A DNA stretch of 27,039 nucleotides from a virus: positions 1 to 27,039 of the IMG/VR virus record IMGVR_UViG_3300025276_000177; one strand, 5' to 3'. The position numbers and the translations under genes were made by a program. Of the stretch, positions 18,354-27,039 are shown piece after piece. How positions within the stretch are numbered: position 1 is the stretch's first letter; each line of letters starts with the position of its first letter. Below the pieces are notes generated by a model. That model saw only the letters and a program-made list of their open reading frames with translations. It did no database searches and had not been told where the DNA came from.

Positions 18354-21300
18354 ATGGCAGAAATTATATATATTGCAAACGGCAAAGAGTACACTGAAAG
18401 TGAGCTCGCTGCTTTAGCAGATCAAAATGGAAAAGATCTTGAAGAGTTTAAAATGCTTTTAGGTGCTGTAGTTAAACAACAAGAACAAGATTTTCAAGAA
18501 GACTCAACTGTACAGGATGCAAATGTGGAGTCTGCAAACAACCCAGCATCCGAAGATACGGATTCGTTTTCGGTAAATACTTCTACGGCTTCACTAGATA
18601 ACTCTTTAGTAGCATCTACTGATTTATTAGGATCAGAAGAAGATGTTCAAACTTTATTACGATCTAGACTTTCTGCCGTAGGTATTACCTCAACAGAAGG
18701 AACTTCATTTGGAAGTATGGATGCTTTAAACTTACAAAATGAATCAGACAGATTGTATGACGAACAAAATCCATATGGTATTGGTTTAAGATCTACTTTA
18801 GACGCTGTATCTGTTAACGATGATGATGATTTAGAAAACTCTGCTAATGAAATAAATGAGTTTATAAAAACAAATGGTAATGTTAATTTTTTAAATGAAG
18901 CAAACGCTAGAAGTGGTGAAGTGTTTAATGAATTAACTCAATACATAGAAGCTCCAACTATAGAAAAACAAGACCTAGAGCAACAATACTGGGATGATAT
19001 TAGAAATAAGTTTGCTAAAATTAAAAAAACAGTAACAACAGGTGGTATTTCAAGTATATTTGATACATCAACAAAAAGAGCAAAAGACGGAACTGTTAGA
19101 TATGGAGAAGATCTTACTGAAAAAGATTTTGATTCTAAAAAAGAATTTGAATTATATAAAATTTACGACGAAGGTGGAGATTTAGGTCAAGCATCTGAAG
19201 AACAATTAAATGAATTTGACGCTAAAAGAATTGCAAAATATAAAGCTAGAAGATTTTCAGAGTTTAGTACTGATTTAGACAAAACAACAAGGTTTGATTT
19301 ACTTGCTTTAACTTATAATATAGGTAATCAAGCAGAAGATGCTATAGAGCAACTACCTAAAGACCTTGCTTTGTTTGAAAAAAGAGAACAAAACTACAAA
19401 AACTACGCAGCAACATATACTGACAATCCAACTCTTGAAAACTGGGAAGGACTTACTATAGCTTTTGAAGATGTTGTAGATTCTCAAAGCACATTACAAT
19501 CCACTCAAGACATTGTAGGAAATTATAAAGAAGTTGTGCCTTTAGGTATAAAAAACTTTGGAGCAAACTATGATAGATTACAACAGCTTAGAACAGGTTT
19601 TAAGTCTTTAGGAGCTAACGGCATGTATTTAAATGCTCAAATGGAAGAATTAACTGGAATCTTTGAACTGAAAGAGTCTATATATGGAGAAGAATTTATG
19701 GAACAATTTTCTGAGTCATCAATGGTAGATCTTGGTGAGGATATAAGAAAAGAAACTAGTAAATTTCAAGAATCAATTAAAGTAGATGAAATACAATCTT
19801 TAAAAGATGCGGGAAGATGGCTGTCATCAAGCACTACTCAATTATTACCTTCTTTCAGCATGGCTTTAACTGGGCCTATGGCTCTTCCTTTGTTTTTTGT
19901 AACAGGAGCGGGTGCAGCTGGATTAGATGTAGCTATTGATCAAAAAAACGCAGGTATAAGATTTGCGAAAAACTTCGATTTACTTAATGATAAATCAAAA
20001 ACATTAGATCCTTTTCAAATAATGGGAATTGAAGAGGAAATGAAGCAAGATAAAAAAACGTTAGAAATAACACCTGGTCAAAAATTAACTAAACAATTTG
20101 TTGATGGTATAGCTGAAGTTATGTTTGAAAAATATGGTACAATGCTTTTAATGAGAAACGTTAAGCAAGGTATAAAATCCATGGGTAGGATGAGTAAAAT
20201 GGAAGCTTTTACATATGCAGGAAAAGGATTTATTGGCGGTAACATTAGAGAAGGTGGTTCAGAATGGGGTACCAATGCTGTTCAAAACTTTGCTAGCATT
20301 TATGTTTTAGATCAAAACAAAAACTTTTTCCCTGAAGATGCTGAAGGCTTTGAAAAATTTAAAGGATCTTTTACAGGTGGATTAGAAGTTTATGCTCAAG
20401 GTGGATTAATGGGTAGTGGTATAAATAGTATAAATGGTTATAAAGCTGTAAAACAAGCTATTGTTAGCGAAATCTATACTAAAGCAGATATGACTGCTTT
20501 AAAAGAAAGTTTAGCTAAATTAAAAGAATTAACAGGAGTTGATCTTGTAACAAATCCTGGAGCTGTTATTCCTGGCCCACATAAACCAGAGGTTCAAAAA
20601 CTAATAGATGAAATACAAAACGAAAAATATGCTTTAGATGAGCAAACTTTAAATAGACTAGGAACTGAATTAACGTATGATCAAGTATTTGAAATTGGAG
20701 AATTAAACTATAAATTAAGAGAAAACAATACAGAATTTCAAGCTTTAGCTAGCATGAAAGACGTAACTCCTGAACAATTAAGGTTATTAGAAACTAAGCA
20801 TAGAAATCAGTTTGAACTTCTCATGAATCAAAGAGAAAAAATACTGGTAGATAAAGACTCTGAAAAAACAAACGTAGAAAATAATACATTAAATCAATTA
20901 GGCTTTAATATCACTTCAGGTTATCAAATGTATAATGCTAGAATGACAAACGCTAGTTTATTTAATATAAACAAACGATGGGTTGATTCTTCTCAAGAAA
21001 CAAAACAATTATACTACGATCAAGCAAGAAAAGAACTAGACGACGAAGGTAGTGTAAAATTACCAGTAAGTTTAGCAAGTAAAGAAGCCATAGAAAAAAG
21101 AGGTAAACAAAAATATTTTAAAGAAATTTATACTAAAAGCTTTGAATCAGGTCTAGAAAATGCTAAAAAATTTACAGAAACTTTTATAACAGAAGATATT
21201 GTTTGGACTATAGCTCAAGGTAAAGATTCTAAAAATGAAATAATATTAGCTTATGCCGCAGCTTTAGAAAACACAGAGCTTACGGAAAAAGAAAAAAACA

Positions 21301-24300
21301 CTAGAAAAGCAGATTTATTAAAAACTTTAAACGACGGTAGTTTTGACGGCGTTAGTGTTGGTAATGCTATAATAGTAAACAAAGACGCTGCTATAGAAAA
21401 AATGAGAACTGGAATAAATGCTCACGAAGCTTTACACCCTTATATAAAGCAACAGTTTAAAACTCAAAAAAACATTGACGAAAAAGGCCAGCAATTATTA
21501 GACTTTTTAGAAGAATCTCAACCAGATTTATTTGCTCAAGTAAAATTTAGGTTAGATCAAAGTTATAAAAAAGTAGGCGAAAATGGAAAACTTGTAAAAG
21601 ACGAGGCGTATTATGAAGAAGCTATGAACGCTTTATCAGATGTGTTAGCTGACGATAGTGGAGATTTTGGTTCTAATATAAAGCCTGAAACAATAAATGT
21701 TCTTAGAAATTTTATAAATGGTTTTTTACCTAGCGCTTTACAATTTAAAGAAAATCAAGGATTTGCAGTATTTCAATTTGTAAAAGATTTTAATAAAGCC
21801 GCTCATTTTGGTGATAAATACAGACAAAGCAAAGGTAATCCAGCTGCTGTTATGGATGAAGAAGAAAAAGCTGAAGCAAAAGTAAATTTCTCTTTAAGTA
21901 AACCAGCAAGAAGAGCTAAAACTATAGTTGATAATATAGGTACTGCTGAAAACTATGATCCTAATTCTGAAGCTTTAATAAAAGAACTACAAGGTGCAAA
22001 AGGTTCACCAGGTATGATTGATGCTGTTATATCAGGAACTTTTAAAGGTTTAAGAGCAGAGGTTCAAGAGGAATTAAAACAAGATATTTTATTTAATTTA
22101 GTTAACCCTAGTAGAACTGGAAAAAGTGATTTAAACGCTTTTGTTCCAGCTGAATATGATAATGATGGCAAAAAAACAAAAGGTAATACTAGTTTATATG
22201 GATATTTAAACGGTAGAATTTCTTTTAGAATGCTAGATGCTTTAAGAAAAAATCCTGAACTTATAAACAATTATAAAGAACAAATTGACGAAGGTACTTT
22301 AAAAATTGAAGGAGACGCAAACGTTAAAAATGTAGATTTAGTTGCTGAAAAGCCTATATACAAAAGCTTGTTAGCTAGTAGAGTTGTTGACACTGATGTG
22401 TTAAAGAACATTAATGCTAAAGTAGTTAAAACAGTTAGAGTTTTAAAAAATCGTATAGACAAAGCTGTAAGTAAAAACACTACTCAAACTCCAATAGTTA
22501 GAGAAATCATAAACTCAGTTGGAAAAGATGTTGATATAGACATCAAAAAAGAAATGGGTGGCAAAGATAATAATACGTTTAAAAATTATCTTACTAAAAA
22601 TAAAAAAGCAATTTTAGAAAACATGACCACTACTTATTTGGCTAAAGCTTTTCCAGAAGCAATTCAAAAAAAGGTTGATGGTAATTGGACTAGCGATTGG
22701 CAAGGTAAAGAAACTGATATTTCTGATACTTCTACTAATTTAGCTGGAATGACATCAGGGTTTCAATTAATGAGACGTTTACCTAATGTTAACAATCAAA
22801 TAAGTACTGAACAATTTCTAGAAAATTACATAGAAAAAAACGGAAGCTTAGTAAGAGGTAGAAAAGAATCTTTAGCTAAAGCTATTGGTGGAGAAGTTAG
22901 TTTTGAAATAATAAACAGAGATTTAAAAACAGAAGGTCCAATATATCAAGCGTTGGTTGTTAACCAGGAGGCTTTAGGATTAATTGTTGCTGAAAATTCT
23001 ATTGATGAATTAACAAAACAAATGGAGCGTGGTCAAATTAAATTTAGCGTTACTCCAGAAGCAATGACTGATGGATTATATGAGTTACTTGATGTAGCTG
23101 CTAATTTTAATACTAATTCAAATTTCTTTAAAGAGTCTTTTGATTATCAAGATCCAGATATTCAAAACCAATGGAATAAATTAGGTCTTACTGATATGTT
23201 TAGCGAAGGTCAAACTGGATTTAAAAGTCCATTATTGAAATGGGCAGATCTACCTAGCGTCTTTAAACCTTATTTAAAAATATATAGACAAACTATTACA
23301 GCTAAGTCACAAGAAAAGTCTATGGATCAATTAAAAGACTTCTCTGAAGCTTTAATGAAAGAAATGCCTTCAGATTTAGTTAAATTTTTAGGAGCTGACG
23401 TATTTGGTTTAACTAATAGATATTTAGATCCTGCGCTTACTAAAAGAGACAAAGATGGTAACATTATAATTGGCGAGCAAGGTAAATATGCTGATACTGC
23501 AAACTTAAGAAAAGAAATAATTGACAATGCAGATAATTTAGACTTACCATTTAATCCAGCTAATCTAGAAATATATAATTCTTCTTCTGGAATCATGCAA
23601 CAAATAGGTAAAGTATTAGATAAGCCAATATCAAAAGCTGAAAAACTATTAGAAATAGAAAGAAGATTTGGAGACAGAATACGTAGTGCTAACGGCGCTA
23701 ACAAAGCTGCTTTAAATTATTTAATGGAGAAAGCAACTGAAATGTTAATTTCTAAACCAGAATTAACTCCAGGCTTTATGCGCTGGATGGAATCAAACAC
23801 TAGTAATGCTAGAGGCATGAGAGGTTTAACAACCTTAGATATGTTTGATGTAAGAGATGGTTCACAAGCAGCGACAGAATCTCATCCTGATTATTTAGAT
23901 GCTCTTCAGTTTGCTAGAGATTCAGCTAAAAAATCTTATGATAAATTATCTGCAAAAAGAAAAAAAGAAATTTCACTAGAGTTTTATATTAATAACAGAT
24001 TAGCAAATCCTACAACAGGAGCATTATCTCATTTAAGACACAAAGGAGAGCATGTAGATCCTGCTGCTAATGTTTCTTTTGCTTTAGCTAAAATAGTTTT
24101 AACAAATGCCGCTAGAGGATTAAAATATGAATCTCAAATAGAGACTATATTAGTTAATCAAGCTATTGAAATTAATGAAGCTATTGCTAATTACTCTCAA
24201 ACATTAGGTGTAAAACTATATTCAGACATACAAGACGGTAAATTAGGTTCAACTAGTAAAGCTGGTGATTTTAGAGTATTATCACTAAGTACAGATCAAC

Positions 24301-27039
24301 TAGCTAACTACACTACTTTAGACGGCAGAACAGCTGAAGAATATGTTAAAGATAAGATATACAAATTAAGTGATAAAATAAACATAGATGAATTAATAGA
24401 TGTTAAAACTAAACAAAAAGCTTTAGATAATGCTACTTCAATTAAACTATCTGTAACACCTAAAAAAATTAGAGTGTTTGATTTTGATGATACTTTAGCT
24501 ACAACTAAAAGCAACGTATTATACACTGCTCAAGATGGAACTAAAGGTTCTTTAACAGCTGAACAGTTTGCCGCTCAAGCAGATCAATTAACTTTAGAAG
24601 GTGTTAAGTTTGATTTTTCTGAGTTTAACGAGGTTTTAGATGGTAAAAAAGGACCATTATTTAGAGTAGCTGAATTAATGAGAGACAAAAGAGGCACAGA
24701 AGATATGTATGTTCTTACCGCTAGACCTCAAGCCGCGGCACCTGCTATATATAAATTCTTAAATGAAGTAGGTTTAAATATACCTTTAAAAAATATAACA
24801 GGCTTAGAAAATGGTAACCCACAAGCTAAAGCTGATTGGATTATAGGTAAAGCTGCAGAAGGATATAATGATTTTTATTTTGCTGATGACGCTGAGTCTA
24901 ATGTTAAAGCTGTTAGAGACGTGCTAGAAACAATAGATGTTAAAAGCAAAGTACAACAAGCTAGAATCAATTTTAGTAAAACTTTTAGCGCTGATTTTAA
25001 TGAAATGCTTGAAAGAAATTCTGGTATAGCTGCTGAAAAGCGATTCTCTGAAGTTGTAGCAAGAAGAAGAGGAACAGCAATAGGTAAGTACAAGGTATTT
25101 TTACCACCATCAGCTGAAGATTTTGAAGGTTTAACTTCTTATGTATTTGCTGGTACAGGAAAACAAGGTACTAAAGATCAAAAGTTTTTTCGTGAAGCAT
25201 TAATAAAGCCTTACATGAGAGGTGTTAGTGCTATAGAAAACTCTAAACAAAGTATACTTAAAGATTATAAAAACTTACAAGCTTTATCAAAACAAAAAGG
25301 ACTTGGTAAATTAATACCTTCAGGTGATTTTACTTATGATCAAGCTGTAAGAGTATATTTATGGGAAAAAGCTGGTTATGAAATACCTGGTATATCAAAA
25401 AGAGATAGAGCTAAACTAAATGAATTAGTTGCTGCTGATGTAGAACTTGCTAATTTTGCAAATGGTCTTTTGTTAATGAGCAAAAAAGATAACTGGACAG
25501 AACCTGGTGACTATTGGGATACTCAAACTTTATTGTCGGATTTAAATAGTTTATCTGAAAAAACTAACAGAACAGAATTTTTACAAGAATTTACTGATAA
25601 TGTAGATGTTATATTTAGTAAAGAAAACTTAAACAAAGTTGAAGCTTTGTACGGTACTAATCAAAGAGAAGCTTTAGAAGATGTTATATATAGAATGAAG
25701 AACGGTACTAATCGTCCTAGCGGTAACAATAAGATAACAAATGCGTGGAATGATTGGGTAAACAACTCTGTTGGTGCTATTATGTTTTTTAATAGAAAAT
25801 CTGCATTATTACAAACTTTATCTACGGTTAATTTTATTAATTGGTCAGACAATAACCCAGTTAAAGCTGCTGCAGCATTCGCAAATCAACCACAATTTTG
25901 GAGAGATTTTGCTTATATATTTAATTCTAATAAATTAAAAGAACGTAGATCAGGATTAAAGCTTAACGTTAATGAATCAGAAATAGCTAATGCAGCTAAA
26001 GGAGCTAAGAATAAGGCTAATGCTATTTTATCTTATTTATTAAAAATAGGTTTTACGCCAACTCAACTAGTAGATAGTTTTGCTATATCTTCAGGTGGAG
26101 CTACAATGTACAGAAATAGAGTTAATACATACATAAAAGAAGGTATGTCTAAAATGGAAGCTCAAGAAAAAGCTTGGGAAGAGTTTTCTGAAATAGCAGA
26201 TTCAACTCAACAGTCTTCTGATCCTATGTTGATATCTCAAGAACAAGCTAGTATTGTAGGTAGATTAGTTTTGAATTTTCAAAATACAACAATGCAGTAT
26301 ACTAGATTAATGAAGAAAGCTGGATTAGATATTTTAAAACGTAGAACATCTAAAGGTTATGAAAATCAATTTCAAAGTGATGTGGCTAATGTAAGTAAGA
26401 TAGTTTACTATGGAGCAATACAAAACTTTATATTTTCTGCATTACAAAACGCTATATTCGCTTTCTTACCTGGCTTTGATGATGACGAAGATGTTGATCA
26501 AGAAGCTATAGATAAAAAACTTAACACTAAAACTGACAGAATAATATCCGGGATGATTGATACTTTATTAAAAGGTTCTGGATTAAAAGGAGCTGTTCTT
26601 TCAGCTATTAAAAATGTAATTAAAAAATACATAGATCAAGACAAGAAAGGTTATATGGCTGATCATACTTATACTATACTAGAAGCAGCTAATATATCAC
26701 CTCCTATTGGATCTAAGTTAAGAAAAATATATAGCGCAATACAAACAAACAAGTTTGAAAAAGCAGTTATAGACGAAAGAGGTTTTGATATAATGGTTGA
26801 TGGTAGATTTAATTTAAGTCCAAAATATCAAGTTTATGGATCTTTAATAGAAGGAGTTACAAATTTTCCATCAGATAGAATTGTTTCTGAGGTTAGTTCT
26901 ATAACTGAAGCTTTTGATGGAAGAAATACTAAATGGCAAAGACTTGCTTTAAGTTTAGGTTGGAGAAACTGGGATGTAGGAGCAAAAAATGAAGAAAATG
27001 ATTTAATAAAAATAGAAGCAAAAGAAAACAAAAAGAAAA
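18354..27039 (+). CDS. Giant multidomain internal virion protein (polyvalent-type), 3' end missing
   Basis: An uninterrupted frame of at least 2895 codons that runs off the window. I translated it by eye and found no stop. The N-terminus (IIYIANGKEYTESELAALAD) is a short signature that I recall at the start of giant marine phage proteins, followed by a Ser/Asp/Asn-rich linker. Hydrophobic segments lie near residues 497-525 and 2690-2712. A zincin-like motif HEALH starts at residue 1024, with E1088/E1089 about 60 residues later. A HAD hydrolase domain spans about 2037-2200. A motif [IV]-[NK]-[FL]-S occurs at 1177, 1562, 2030 and 2205. The C-terminal part (NRKSALLQTLSTVNFINW, LVLNFQNTTMQYTRLMKKA) resembles the large polyvalent protein domains described by Iyer, Burroughs and Aravind, tentatively LPD38. 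Proteins of this type are thought to be ejected with the DNA. No phage RNA polymerase motif is seen in the visible part. Confidence 0.88.
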   Translation, partial: MAEIIYIANGKEYTESELAALADQNGKDLEEFKMLLGAVVKQQEQDFQEDSTVQDANVESANNPASEDTDSFSVNTSTASLDNSLVASTDLLGSEEDVQTLLRSRLSAVGITSTEGTSFGSMDALNLQNESDRLYDEQNPYGIGLRSTLDAVSVNDDDDLENSANEINEFIKTNGNVNFLNEANARSGEVFNELTQYIEAPTIEKQDLEQQYWDDIRNKFAKIKKTVTTGGISSIFDTSTKRAKDGTVRYGEDLTEKDFDSKKEFELYKIYDEGGDLGQASEEQLNEFDAKRIAKYKARRFSEFSTDLDKTTRFDLLALTYNIGNQAEDAIEQLPKDLALFEKREQNYKNYAATYTDNPTLENWEGLTIAFEDVVDSQSTLQSTQDIVGNYKEVVPLGIKNFGANYDRLQQLRTGFKSLGANGMYLNAQMEELTGIFELKESIYGEEFMEQFSESSMVDLGEDIRKETSKFQESIKVDEIQSLKDAGRWLSSSTTQLLPSFSMALTGPMALPLFFVTGAGAAGLDVAIDQKNAGIRFAKNFDLLNDKSKTLDPFQIMGIEEEMKQDKKTLEITPGQKLTKQFVDGIAEVMFEKYGTMLLMRNVKQGIKSMGRMSKMEAFTYAGKGFIGGNIREGGSEWGTNAVQNFASIYVLDQNKNFFPEDAEGFEKFKGSFTGGLEVYAQGGLMGSGINSINGYKAVKQAIVSEIYTKADMTALKESLAKLKELTGVDLVTNPGAVIPGPHKPEVQKLIDEIQNEKYALDEQTLNRLGTELTYDQVFEIGELNYKLRENNTEFQALASMKDVTPEQLRLLETKHRNQFELLMNQREKILVDKDSEKTNVENNTLNQLGFNITSGYQMYNARMTNASLFNINKRWVDSSQETKQLYYDQARKELDDEGSVKLPVSLASKEAIEKRGKQKYFKEIYTKSFESGLENAKKFTETFITEDIVWTIAQGKDSKNEIILAYAAALENTELTEKEKNTRKADLLKTLNDGSFDGVSVGNAIIVNKDAAIEKMRTGINAHEALHPYIKQQFKTQKNIDEKGQQLLDFLEESQPDLFAQVKFRLDQSYKKVGENGKLVKDEAYYEEAMNALSDVLADDSGDFGSNIKPETINVLRNFINGFLPSALQFKENQGFAVFQFVKDFNKAAHFGDKYRQSKGNPAAVMDEEEKAEAKVNFSLSKPARRAKTIVDNIGTAENYDPNSEALIKELQGAKGSPGMIDAVISGTFKGLRAEVQEELKQDILFNLVNPSRTGKSDLNAFVPAEYDNDGKKTKGNTSLYGYLNGRISFRMLDALRKNPELINNYKEQIDEGTLKIEGDANVKNVDLVAEKPIYKSLLASRVVDTDVLKNINAKVVKTVRVLKNRIDKAVSKNTTQTPIVREIINSVGKDVDIDIKKEMGGKDNNTFKNYLTKNKKAILENMTTTYLAKAFPEAIQKKVDGNWTSDWQGKETDISDTSTNLAGMTSGFQLMRRLPNVNNQISTEQFLENYIEKNGSLVRGRKESLAKAIGGEVSFEIINRDLKTEGPIYQALVVNQEALGLIVAENSIDELTKQMERGQIKFSVTPEAMTDGLYELLDVAANFNTNSNFFKESFDYQDPDIQNQWNKLGLTDMFSEGQTGFKSPLLKWADLPSVFKPYLKIYRQTITAKSQEKSMDQLKDFSEALMKEMPSDLVKFLGADVFGLTNRYLDPALTKRDKDGNIIIGEQGKYADTANLRKEIIDNADNLDLPFNPANLEIYNSSSGIMQQIGKVLDKPISKAEKLLEIERRFGDRIRSANGANKAALNYLMEKATEMLISKPELTPGFMRWMESNTSNARGMRGLTTLDMFDVRDGSQAATESHPDYLDALQFARDSAKKSYDKLSAKRKKEISLEFYINNRLANPTTGALSHLRHKGEHVDPAANVSFALAKIVLTNAARGLKYESQIETILVNQAIEINEAIANYSQTLGVKLYSDIQDGKLGSTSKAGDFRVLSLSTDQLANYTTLDGRTAEEYVKDKIYKLSDKINIDELIDVKTKQKALDNATSIKLSVTPKKIRVFDFDDTLATTKSNVLYTAQDGTKGSLTAEQFAAQADQLTLEGVKFDFSEFNEVLDGKKGPLFRVAELMRDKRGTEDMYVLTARPQAAAPAIYKFLNEVGLNIPLKNITGLENGNPQAKADWIIGKAAEGYNDFYFADDAESNVKAVRDVLETIDVKSKVQQARINFSKTFSADFNEMLERNSGIAAEKRFSEVVARRRGTAIGKYKVFLPPSAEDFEGLTSYVFAGTGKQGTKDQKFFREALIKPYMRGVSAIENSKQSILKDYKNLQALSKQKGLGKLIPSGDFTYDQAVRVYLWEKAGYEIPGISKRDRAKLNELVAADVELANFANGLLLMSKKDNWTEPGDYWDTQTLLSDLNSLSEKTNRTEFLQEFTDNVDVIFSKENLNKVEALYGTNQREALEDVIYRMKNGTNRPSGNNKITNAWNDWVNNSVGAIMFFNRKSALLQTLSTVNFINWSDNNPVKAAAAFANQPQFWRDFAYIFNSNKLKERRSGLKLNVNESEIANAAKGAKNKANAILSYLLKIGFTPTQLVDSFAISSGGATMYRNRVNTYIKEGMSKMEAQEKAWEEFSEIADSTQQSSDPMLISQEQASIVGRLVLNFQNTTMQYTRLMKKAGLDILKRRTSKGYENQFQSDVANVSKIVYYGAIQNFIFSALQNAIFAFLPGFDDDEDVDQEAIDKKLNTKTDRIISGMIDTLLKGSGLKGAVLSAIKNVIKKYIDQDKKGYMADHTYTILEAANISPPIGSKLRKIYSAIQTNKFEKAVIDERGFDIMVDGRFNLSPKYQVYGSLIEGVTNFPSDRIVSEVSSITEAFDGRNTKWQRLALSLGWRNWDVGAKNEENDLIKIEAKENKKK
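21360..21881 (+). other. Zincin-like metallopeptidase region inside the giant protein
   Basis: Codons 21423-21437 encode HEALH (H1024, E1025, H1028), the HExxH zinc-peptidase motif, placed in a helix (MRTGINAHEALHPYIKQ). About 60 residues on comes EEAMNALSDVLAD (E1088 or E1089), in the place of the third, glutamate ligand of gluzincins. A helical FINGFLPS and VFQFVKDFN tail follows, as I remember it from zincin domains in other giant phage proteins. The region ends at a VNFSLSK motif. Whether it cleaves the giant protein itself or a host target is not visible. Confidence 0.65.
24441..24986 (+). other. HAD-family phosphatase domain inside the giant protein, flanked by repeat motifs
   Basis: All expected HAD motifs are present. 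Motif I is FDFDDTL with the nucleophile D2043 and acid/base D2045, motif II is VLTARP with T2122, motif III is probably K2146 or the lysine in PQAKADW, and motif IV is FADDAESN with D2178/D2179. The cap between motifs I and II is small. The general form is that of phage and bacterial HAD nucleotide or polynucleotide phosphatases, but the substrate cannot be read from the sequence. The domain starts 7 residues after IKLSVTP and is closed by INFSKTF. Confidence 0.85.

Follow-up and report, generated by a model that had tools for sequence, protein, structure and literature searches.

Phage polyvalent proteins, as treated in the relevant passages of PMC5512222, are giant multidomain proteins encoded in virion gene clusters, in which exchangeable enzymatic domains are combined with an embedded zincin-like metallopeptidase. 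Processing of these proteins between their domains by the zincin was proposed there in 2017 by Iyer et al., and no cleavage site was found named in those passages. Two further kinds of giant virion protein are comparable. The virion RNA polymerase (vRNAP) of N4-like phages (Schitoviridae gp50) has about 3500 amino acids, is ejected with the DNA, and contains an HExxH domain and flexible linkers between its folded units (PMC12633501). The cargo proteins of crassviruses are large, stored in the virion, and ejected into Bacteroidota hosts (PMC10172136).

The protein described here is assigned to this polyvalent or ejection-protein kind, and its new part is a short motif repeated at the seams between its modules. 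It is encoded in IMG/VR virus record IMGVR_UViG_3300025276_000177, which was analyzed over its whole length of 27,039 nucleotides (the window). Terminase, portal, capsid, and further head-and-tail genes follow one another in this 27-kb record, and the last gene of the virion cluster that is visible is a giant open reading frame (ORF) of 2895 codons (18354..27038, + strand, as for all features below). No stop codon precedes the window end, so the protein has at least 2895 amino acids; a complete homologue in a related locus (L002) has 3306. A metallopeptidase, a HAD phosphatase, and exchangeable blocks are thus joined in one protein adjacent to portal and capsid genes, the combination that characterizes polyvalent proteins. 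No polymerase was found in it, unlike in N4 vRNAP, and no sequence match to the crassvirus cargo proteins was shown, its HAD and metallopeptidase modules not having been compared with them. The main text of PMC5512222 does not contain the word “linker,” and its passages on polyvalent proteins do not name the seam motif, in which respect that description differs from the present lineage. Likewise, nothing describing the motif came up when the literature, supplements not included, was searched for motifs at the seams or linkers of giant virion proteins.

A repeated motif at the module borders

As judged from sequence, the giant protein is a mosaic of exchangeable modules: a metallopeptidase (residues ~985 to 1170; 21306..21863), block B (1200 to 1558; 21951..23027), block C (1572 to 1985; 23067..24308), a PNKP-type HAD phosphatase (2037 to 2203; 24462..24962), and a constant C-terminal module (FNxhhE...PPSAEDF...FQNTxMQY; 24987..27038). 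The motif, with a consensus of approximately [VI]-[KNQ]-[FYM]-S-[KRL]-[ST] (roughly V-K-F-S-K-S), occurs after the metallopeptidase as VNFSLSK (1177 to 1183; 21882..21902), between blocks B and C as IKFSVTP (1562 to 1568; 23037..23057), before the HAD domain as IKLSVTP (2030 to 2036; 24441..24461), and at the start of the C-terminal module as INFSKTF (2205 to 2211; 24966..24986). These are exactly the positions given in a preliminary description of the window. HEALH lies at 1024 to 1028 and FDFDDT at 2042 to 2047. A strict form, [IV][KN][FL]S[VLK][TS], which was fitted post hoc to the four copies, matches only these four places in the protein (shuffle expectation, 0.015). A looser form also occurs four times, where 1.24 occurrences would be expected (P = 0.04). 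The form [FY]S[KR] is absent from the window's other virion proteins. Four copies in one protein are weak evidence, and the case therefore rests on relatives.

Relatives were collected at 80 loci, which yielded 66 proteins less than 90% identical to each other within the HAD region. A second scan, with a C-terminal query starting downstream of the motif and a deeper alignment, brought the total to 114 nonredundant proteins of at least 1500 amino acids. Module borders were drawn from homology searches without use of the motif. Around these borders, the form [IVLM]-[KNRQST]-[FYLMW]-S-[VLKRIQ] was more frequent than elsewhere in the chains, with an enrichment of 12-fold over the 50 residues that follow the metallopeptidase (P = 1e-6), of about 100-fold where block B ends (P = 6e-14), and of 15-fold over the 60 residues ahead of the HAD domain (P = 1e-14); these P values, like the breakpoint statistics below, are uncorrected for kinship among the relatives. 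Forms similar to VNFSLSK recur behind the metallopeptidase. At the counterpart of the copy at 1562, Phe and Ser are each kept in 20 of 22 members of a diverse set whose flanking sequences can barely be aligned. The copy after the HAD domain is also well kept (Phe in 47/66, Ser in 55/66) and lies between a conserved VKSKVQQAK strand and the FNxhhE helix. The copy before the HAD domain is poorly conserved: only 22/66 relatives have [FYMW]S within 12 residues, and the others have FSR, NAR, or nothing.

The motif also coincides with the places at which homology between relatives breaks off. Breakpoints lie within 12 residues of 141 of 158 motif copies, compared with 86 ± 6 expected from circular shifts, and control motifs with Thr, Asn, Asp, or Ala in place of Ser show breakpoint proximity at expectation. 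Ends of high-scoring segment pairs peak at 1.88 per copy in the 10 amino acids following the motif, over a base of about 0.25, and the controls have no peak there. Set against the missing kinship correction are the counts of module classes. Around 242 motif copies there are 75 upstream and 86 downstream sequence classes; a single upstream class occurs with 20 different downstream classes, and a single downstream class follows 13 different upstream ones, with the motif kept between them. The serine is strict. Once composition is allowed for, forms with any other residue in its place are at least three times rarer. Where the C-terminal module begins, [FYM]S is found in 86 of 114 proteins and [FYM]T in 1. 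The number of copies per protein varies from 0 to 7.

AlphaFold2 models of regions of the giant protein, built from alignments of 43 and 32 sequences, place all four copies in predicted linkers or hinges. Residues 1152 to 1186 around the first copy (model residues 193 to 227) are predicted to be disordered, with a predicted local distance difference test (pLDDT) score below 50. The copy at 1562 also has pLDDT below 50 (model residues 601 to 614). An end effect contributes to this low score in the first model; in the second, the copy lies 20 to 30 residues from the end. The copy at 2030 falls in a short helix or loop immediately preceding the first HAD strand, and that at 2205 forms a hinge (pLDDT, ~63) that follows the last HAD strand and opens a helix. 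None is modeled as an internal core strand, the placement that would have spoken against the proposal that repeats of this motif mark domain borders. Together with the enrichment in relatives, these placements bear that proposal out: a repeated, conserved site stands at domain borders in exposed linkers. It resembles a site of recognition, perhaps by a protease, and not a marker of the phosphatase domain alone. We did not see the motif in the Dar proteins of phage P1 or in Bacteroidota proteins found with PF18818.

Candidate readers of the motif

The reading that we favor, with a probability of roughly two in five, is that a polyprotein-like ejection protein is cleaved at the motif, which is read by a partner, most likely a protease. 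The partner would recognize Phe-Ser in an exposed linker, and cutting of the giant protein into its modules would take place ahead of packaging, inside the capsid, or once the protein has been ejected into the host. The first candidate enzyme is the embedded metallopeptidase. On this reading, the HAD phosphatase would be released alongside other modules and would act on nucleic acid ends or nucleotides in the host.

A protease is favored for three reasons. First, a conserved metallopeptidase active site is present in the same chain: HExxH (H1024, E1025, and H1028 in the window protein) is intact in 109 of 114 proteins, and 108 of these 109 also have the distal Glu (E1089). Second, the motif tolerates Phe, Tyr, or Met at one place and requires Ser at the next. 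The S1′ pocket of such metallopeptidases usually prefers large hydrophobic residues, which Phe, Tyr, and Met at one place of the motif fit. Third, processing by embedded zincins has already been proposed for proteins of this kind, in the passages of PMC5512222 cited above. A wider claim, that this double-stranded DNA phage lineage makes a true polyprotein, 2000 to 3400 amino acids of exchangeable effector and ejection modules, which is cut at a shared six-residue seam site by its own metallopeptidase, so that the flanked modules can be swapped, is more tentative; we consider it doubtful.

Several observations weigh against cleavage. No copy of the motif is present in 18 of 114 relatives under a fuller motif form, and the sample is not independent, as all relatives have one C-terminal module in common. 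HExxH is not intact in 5 of 114 relatives. Two proteins (L054 and L074) carry EELFH in its place, with loss of the first zinc ligand, and are probably inactive as peptidases; each has five seam motifs. In the AlphaFold2 model, HEALH lies within a predicted helix behind a short pair of strands, but a fold search with the metallopeptidase model gave no significant Protein Data Bank (PDB) match. Finally, PMC12633501 and the relevant passages of PMC5512222 describe N4 vRNAP, likewise a giant HExxH-containing ejection protein, as packaged without being cut.

Pfam gave no match to PF18818 (MPTase-PolyVal), for which profile comparison was weak (probability, 26%), and on the N-terminal halves of the proteins it gave no recurring domain, only four weak single matches. 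Prohead protease S78 was not found in 16 related contigs, which are possibly fragments; other protease families were not searched. Block B is present in 18 of 66 relatives, about ten of which lack block C, and block C is present in 10 of 66, with or without block B. Block C is mostly helical and contains a near-invariant Glu-His pair (1888 to 1889 in L005) conserved about as strongly as the zinc ligands in a 22-sequence alignment.

There are real rivals to the protease reading. The motif might be a structural joint that is never cut, in which an aromatic residue and a Ser open the following helix; it would allow the modules to unfold and refold stepwise while the protein is threaded through the tail. 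The copies at 1177, 1562, and 2205 stand immediately ahead of a predicted helix, and both N4 vRNAP and the crAss001 cargo are thought to be without all or part of their fold while they traverse the tail (PMC12633501, PMC10172136). However, Thr, Asn, and Asp are also good helix caps, yet Thr almost never replaces the Ser at the C-terminal module, and the residues at +3 and +4 do not make the usual capping box. The strictness of Ser over Thr makes a plain helix cap unlikely, and we regard the threading joint as a whole as somewhat improbable.

Less probable again is a docking motif, each copy of which would bind a virion component such as the portal, the inner core, or a chaperone and so anchor the modules in order. 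A strict short motif that is repeated along the chain in exposed linkers and retained through module change would suit such a role, and the crAss001 cargo binds the portal wing (PMC10172136). Against this, no partner pocket was identified, and the copy number is far from constant.

The phosphatase module and the level of selection

The HAD module resembles the 3′-phosphatase of phage polynucleotide kinase (PseT/PNKP HAD) in both profile and structure. Its best profile match is phrog_415, polynucleotide kinase (E = 5.9e-8), and among viral proteins its model matches the PseT and PNKP phosphatase structures. Matches in the PDB were weak, the best to a HAD protein being Ceg4 (probability 0.96 but E = 0.08). 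The model has a core of alternating strands and helices from about 2037 to 2203 with high pLDDT, and the columns of catalytic motifs I to IV (DxD, Thr, Lys, and acidic; D2043, D2045, T2122, K2159, D2178, and D2179) are invariant in 43 sequences. Unlike in PseT and PNKP, no kinase domain was found beside it, and it sits inside a giant protein. Five relatives (L024, L025, L027, L067, and L076) have an insertion of a few to about 100 residues directly behind motif I. On contig 3300047157_000041 (L028/L097), the C-terminal 883 amino acids form a separate ORF that starts within the HAD domain, the gene being split or frameshifted.

The preliminary description took the two flanking motif copies as possible sites for release of a HAD effector. 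In the window, the copies do bracket the HAD core exactly, and the AlphaFold2 model has a hinge behind it. The bracketing is not specific to the domain, however. No more than about a third of relatives retain the upstream site, and the downstream site is part of the opening of the C-terminal module: a HAD match is lacking in 26 of 74 proteins found via that module, and among 25 nonredundant proteins without the domain, 16 have [FYM]S no more than 28 residues away from where the module begins and none has [FYM]T. Two relatives (L131 and L132) have the same C-terminal module behind different preceding sequences, with the seams TMYSKT and IKFSRT. Because relatives without the HAD domain keep the downstream motif, it marks module seams and not this domain. 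Bracketing of the HAD domain as a general rule was rejected for the same reason, and excision aimed at this domain is improbable. In five other loci (L108, L109, L111, L112, and L120), a conserved sequence, VTKTWDSVQES...RFYEINTDNL, replaces the HAD domain and ends at the same seam motif.

Codon use places the selection at the level of the protein. Ser codons of the motif (TCT, 31%; AGT, 32%; AGC, 18%; TCA, 16%) match the background, as do its Phe and Lys codons. Where the C-terminal module begins, the motif Ser is encoded by AGY in 69 cases and by TCN in 15, whereas three other conserved Ser columns use nearly one class only. Ordinary codon use and the presence of both Ser classes argue that selection acts on the residue; the motif has apparently been regained repeatedly in evolution. 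A tag at the DNA level, conserved as a guide for module exchange between genomes, would account for the coincidence of breakpoints with the motif but is rejected on these codons and is very improbable.

Phage lineage and significance

The portal encoded in the window is 40 to 49% identical to portals of Flavobacterium elemo phages, Cellulophaga phages, and related podoviruses, by which measure the source phage is related to the Flavobacterium and Cellulophaga podoviruses. Matches in metagenome-assembled genomes are for the most part in Bacteroidota, and the host of the lineage is probably a member of this phylum. In Flavobacterium phage elemo (gp18) and in MW202828, giant proteins with HExxH (3694 and 3859 amino acids) are encoded at the corresponding place behind portal and terminase genes homologous to those of the window; they have no tblastn match to the window protein and no enrichment of the motif. 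The elemo protein is annotated only as “structural protein.” Both of these related phages, MW202828 and elemo (L003 and L004), have groEL and groES genes of their own. By tblastn against 50,697 phage records, the whole giant protein had no match and the C-terminal parts of near relatives had no usable homologue. At least 591 IMG/VR stretches encode the C-terminal module. The lineage is common but uncultured, and its members are marine phages.

To the proposed processing of such proteins this lineage supplies a concrete candidate cleavage site, with predictions at the level of a single residue (Phe-Ser), more than 100 natural variants, and a candidate enzyme. With site and enzyme named, a single fragment and a single mutant suffice to put the question of cleavage to the test. 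Should the motif prove to be a docking site or a joint for threading, it would still give a rule by which such proteins take up new modules.

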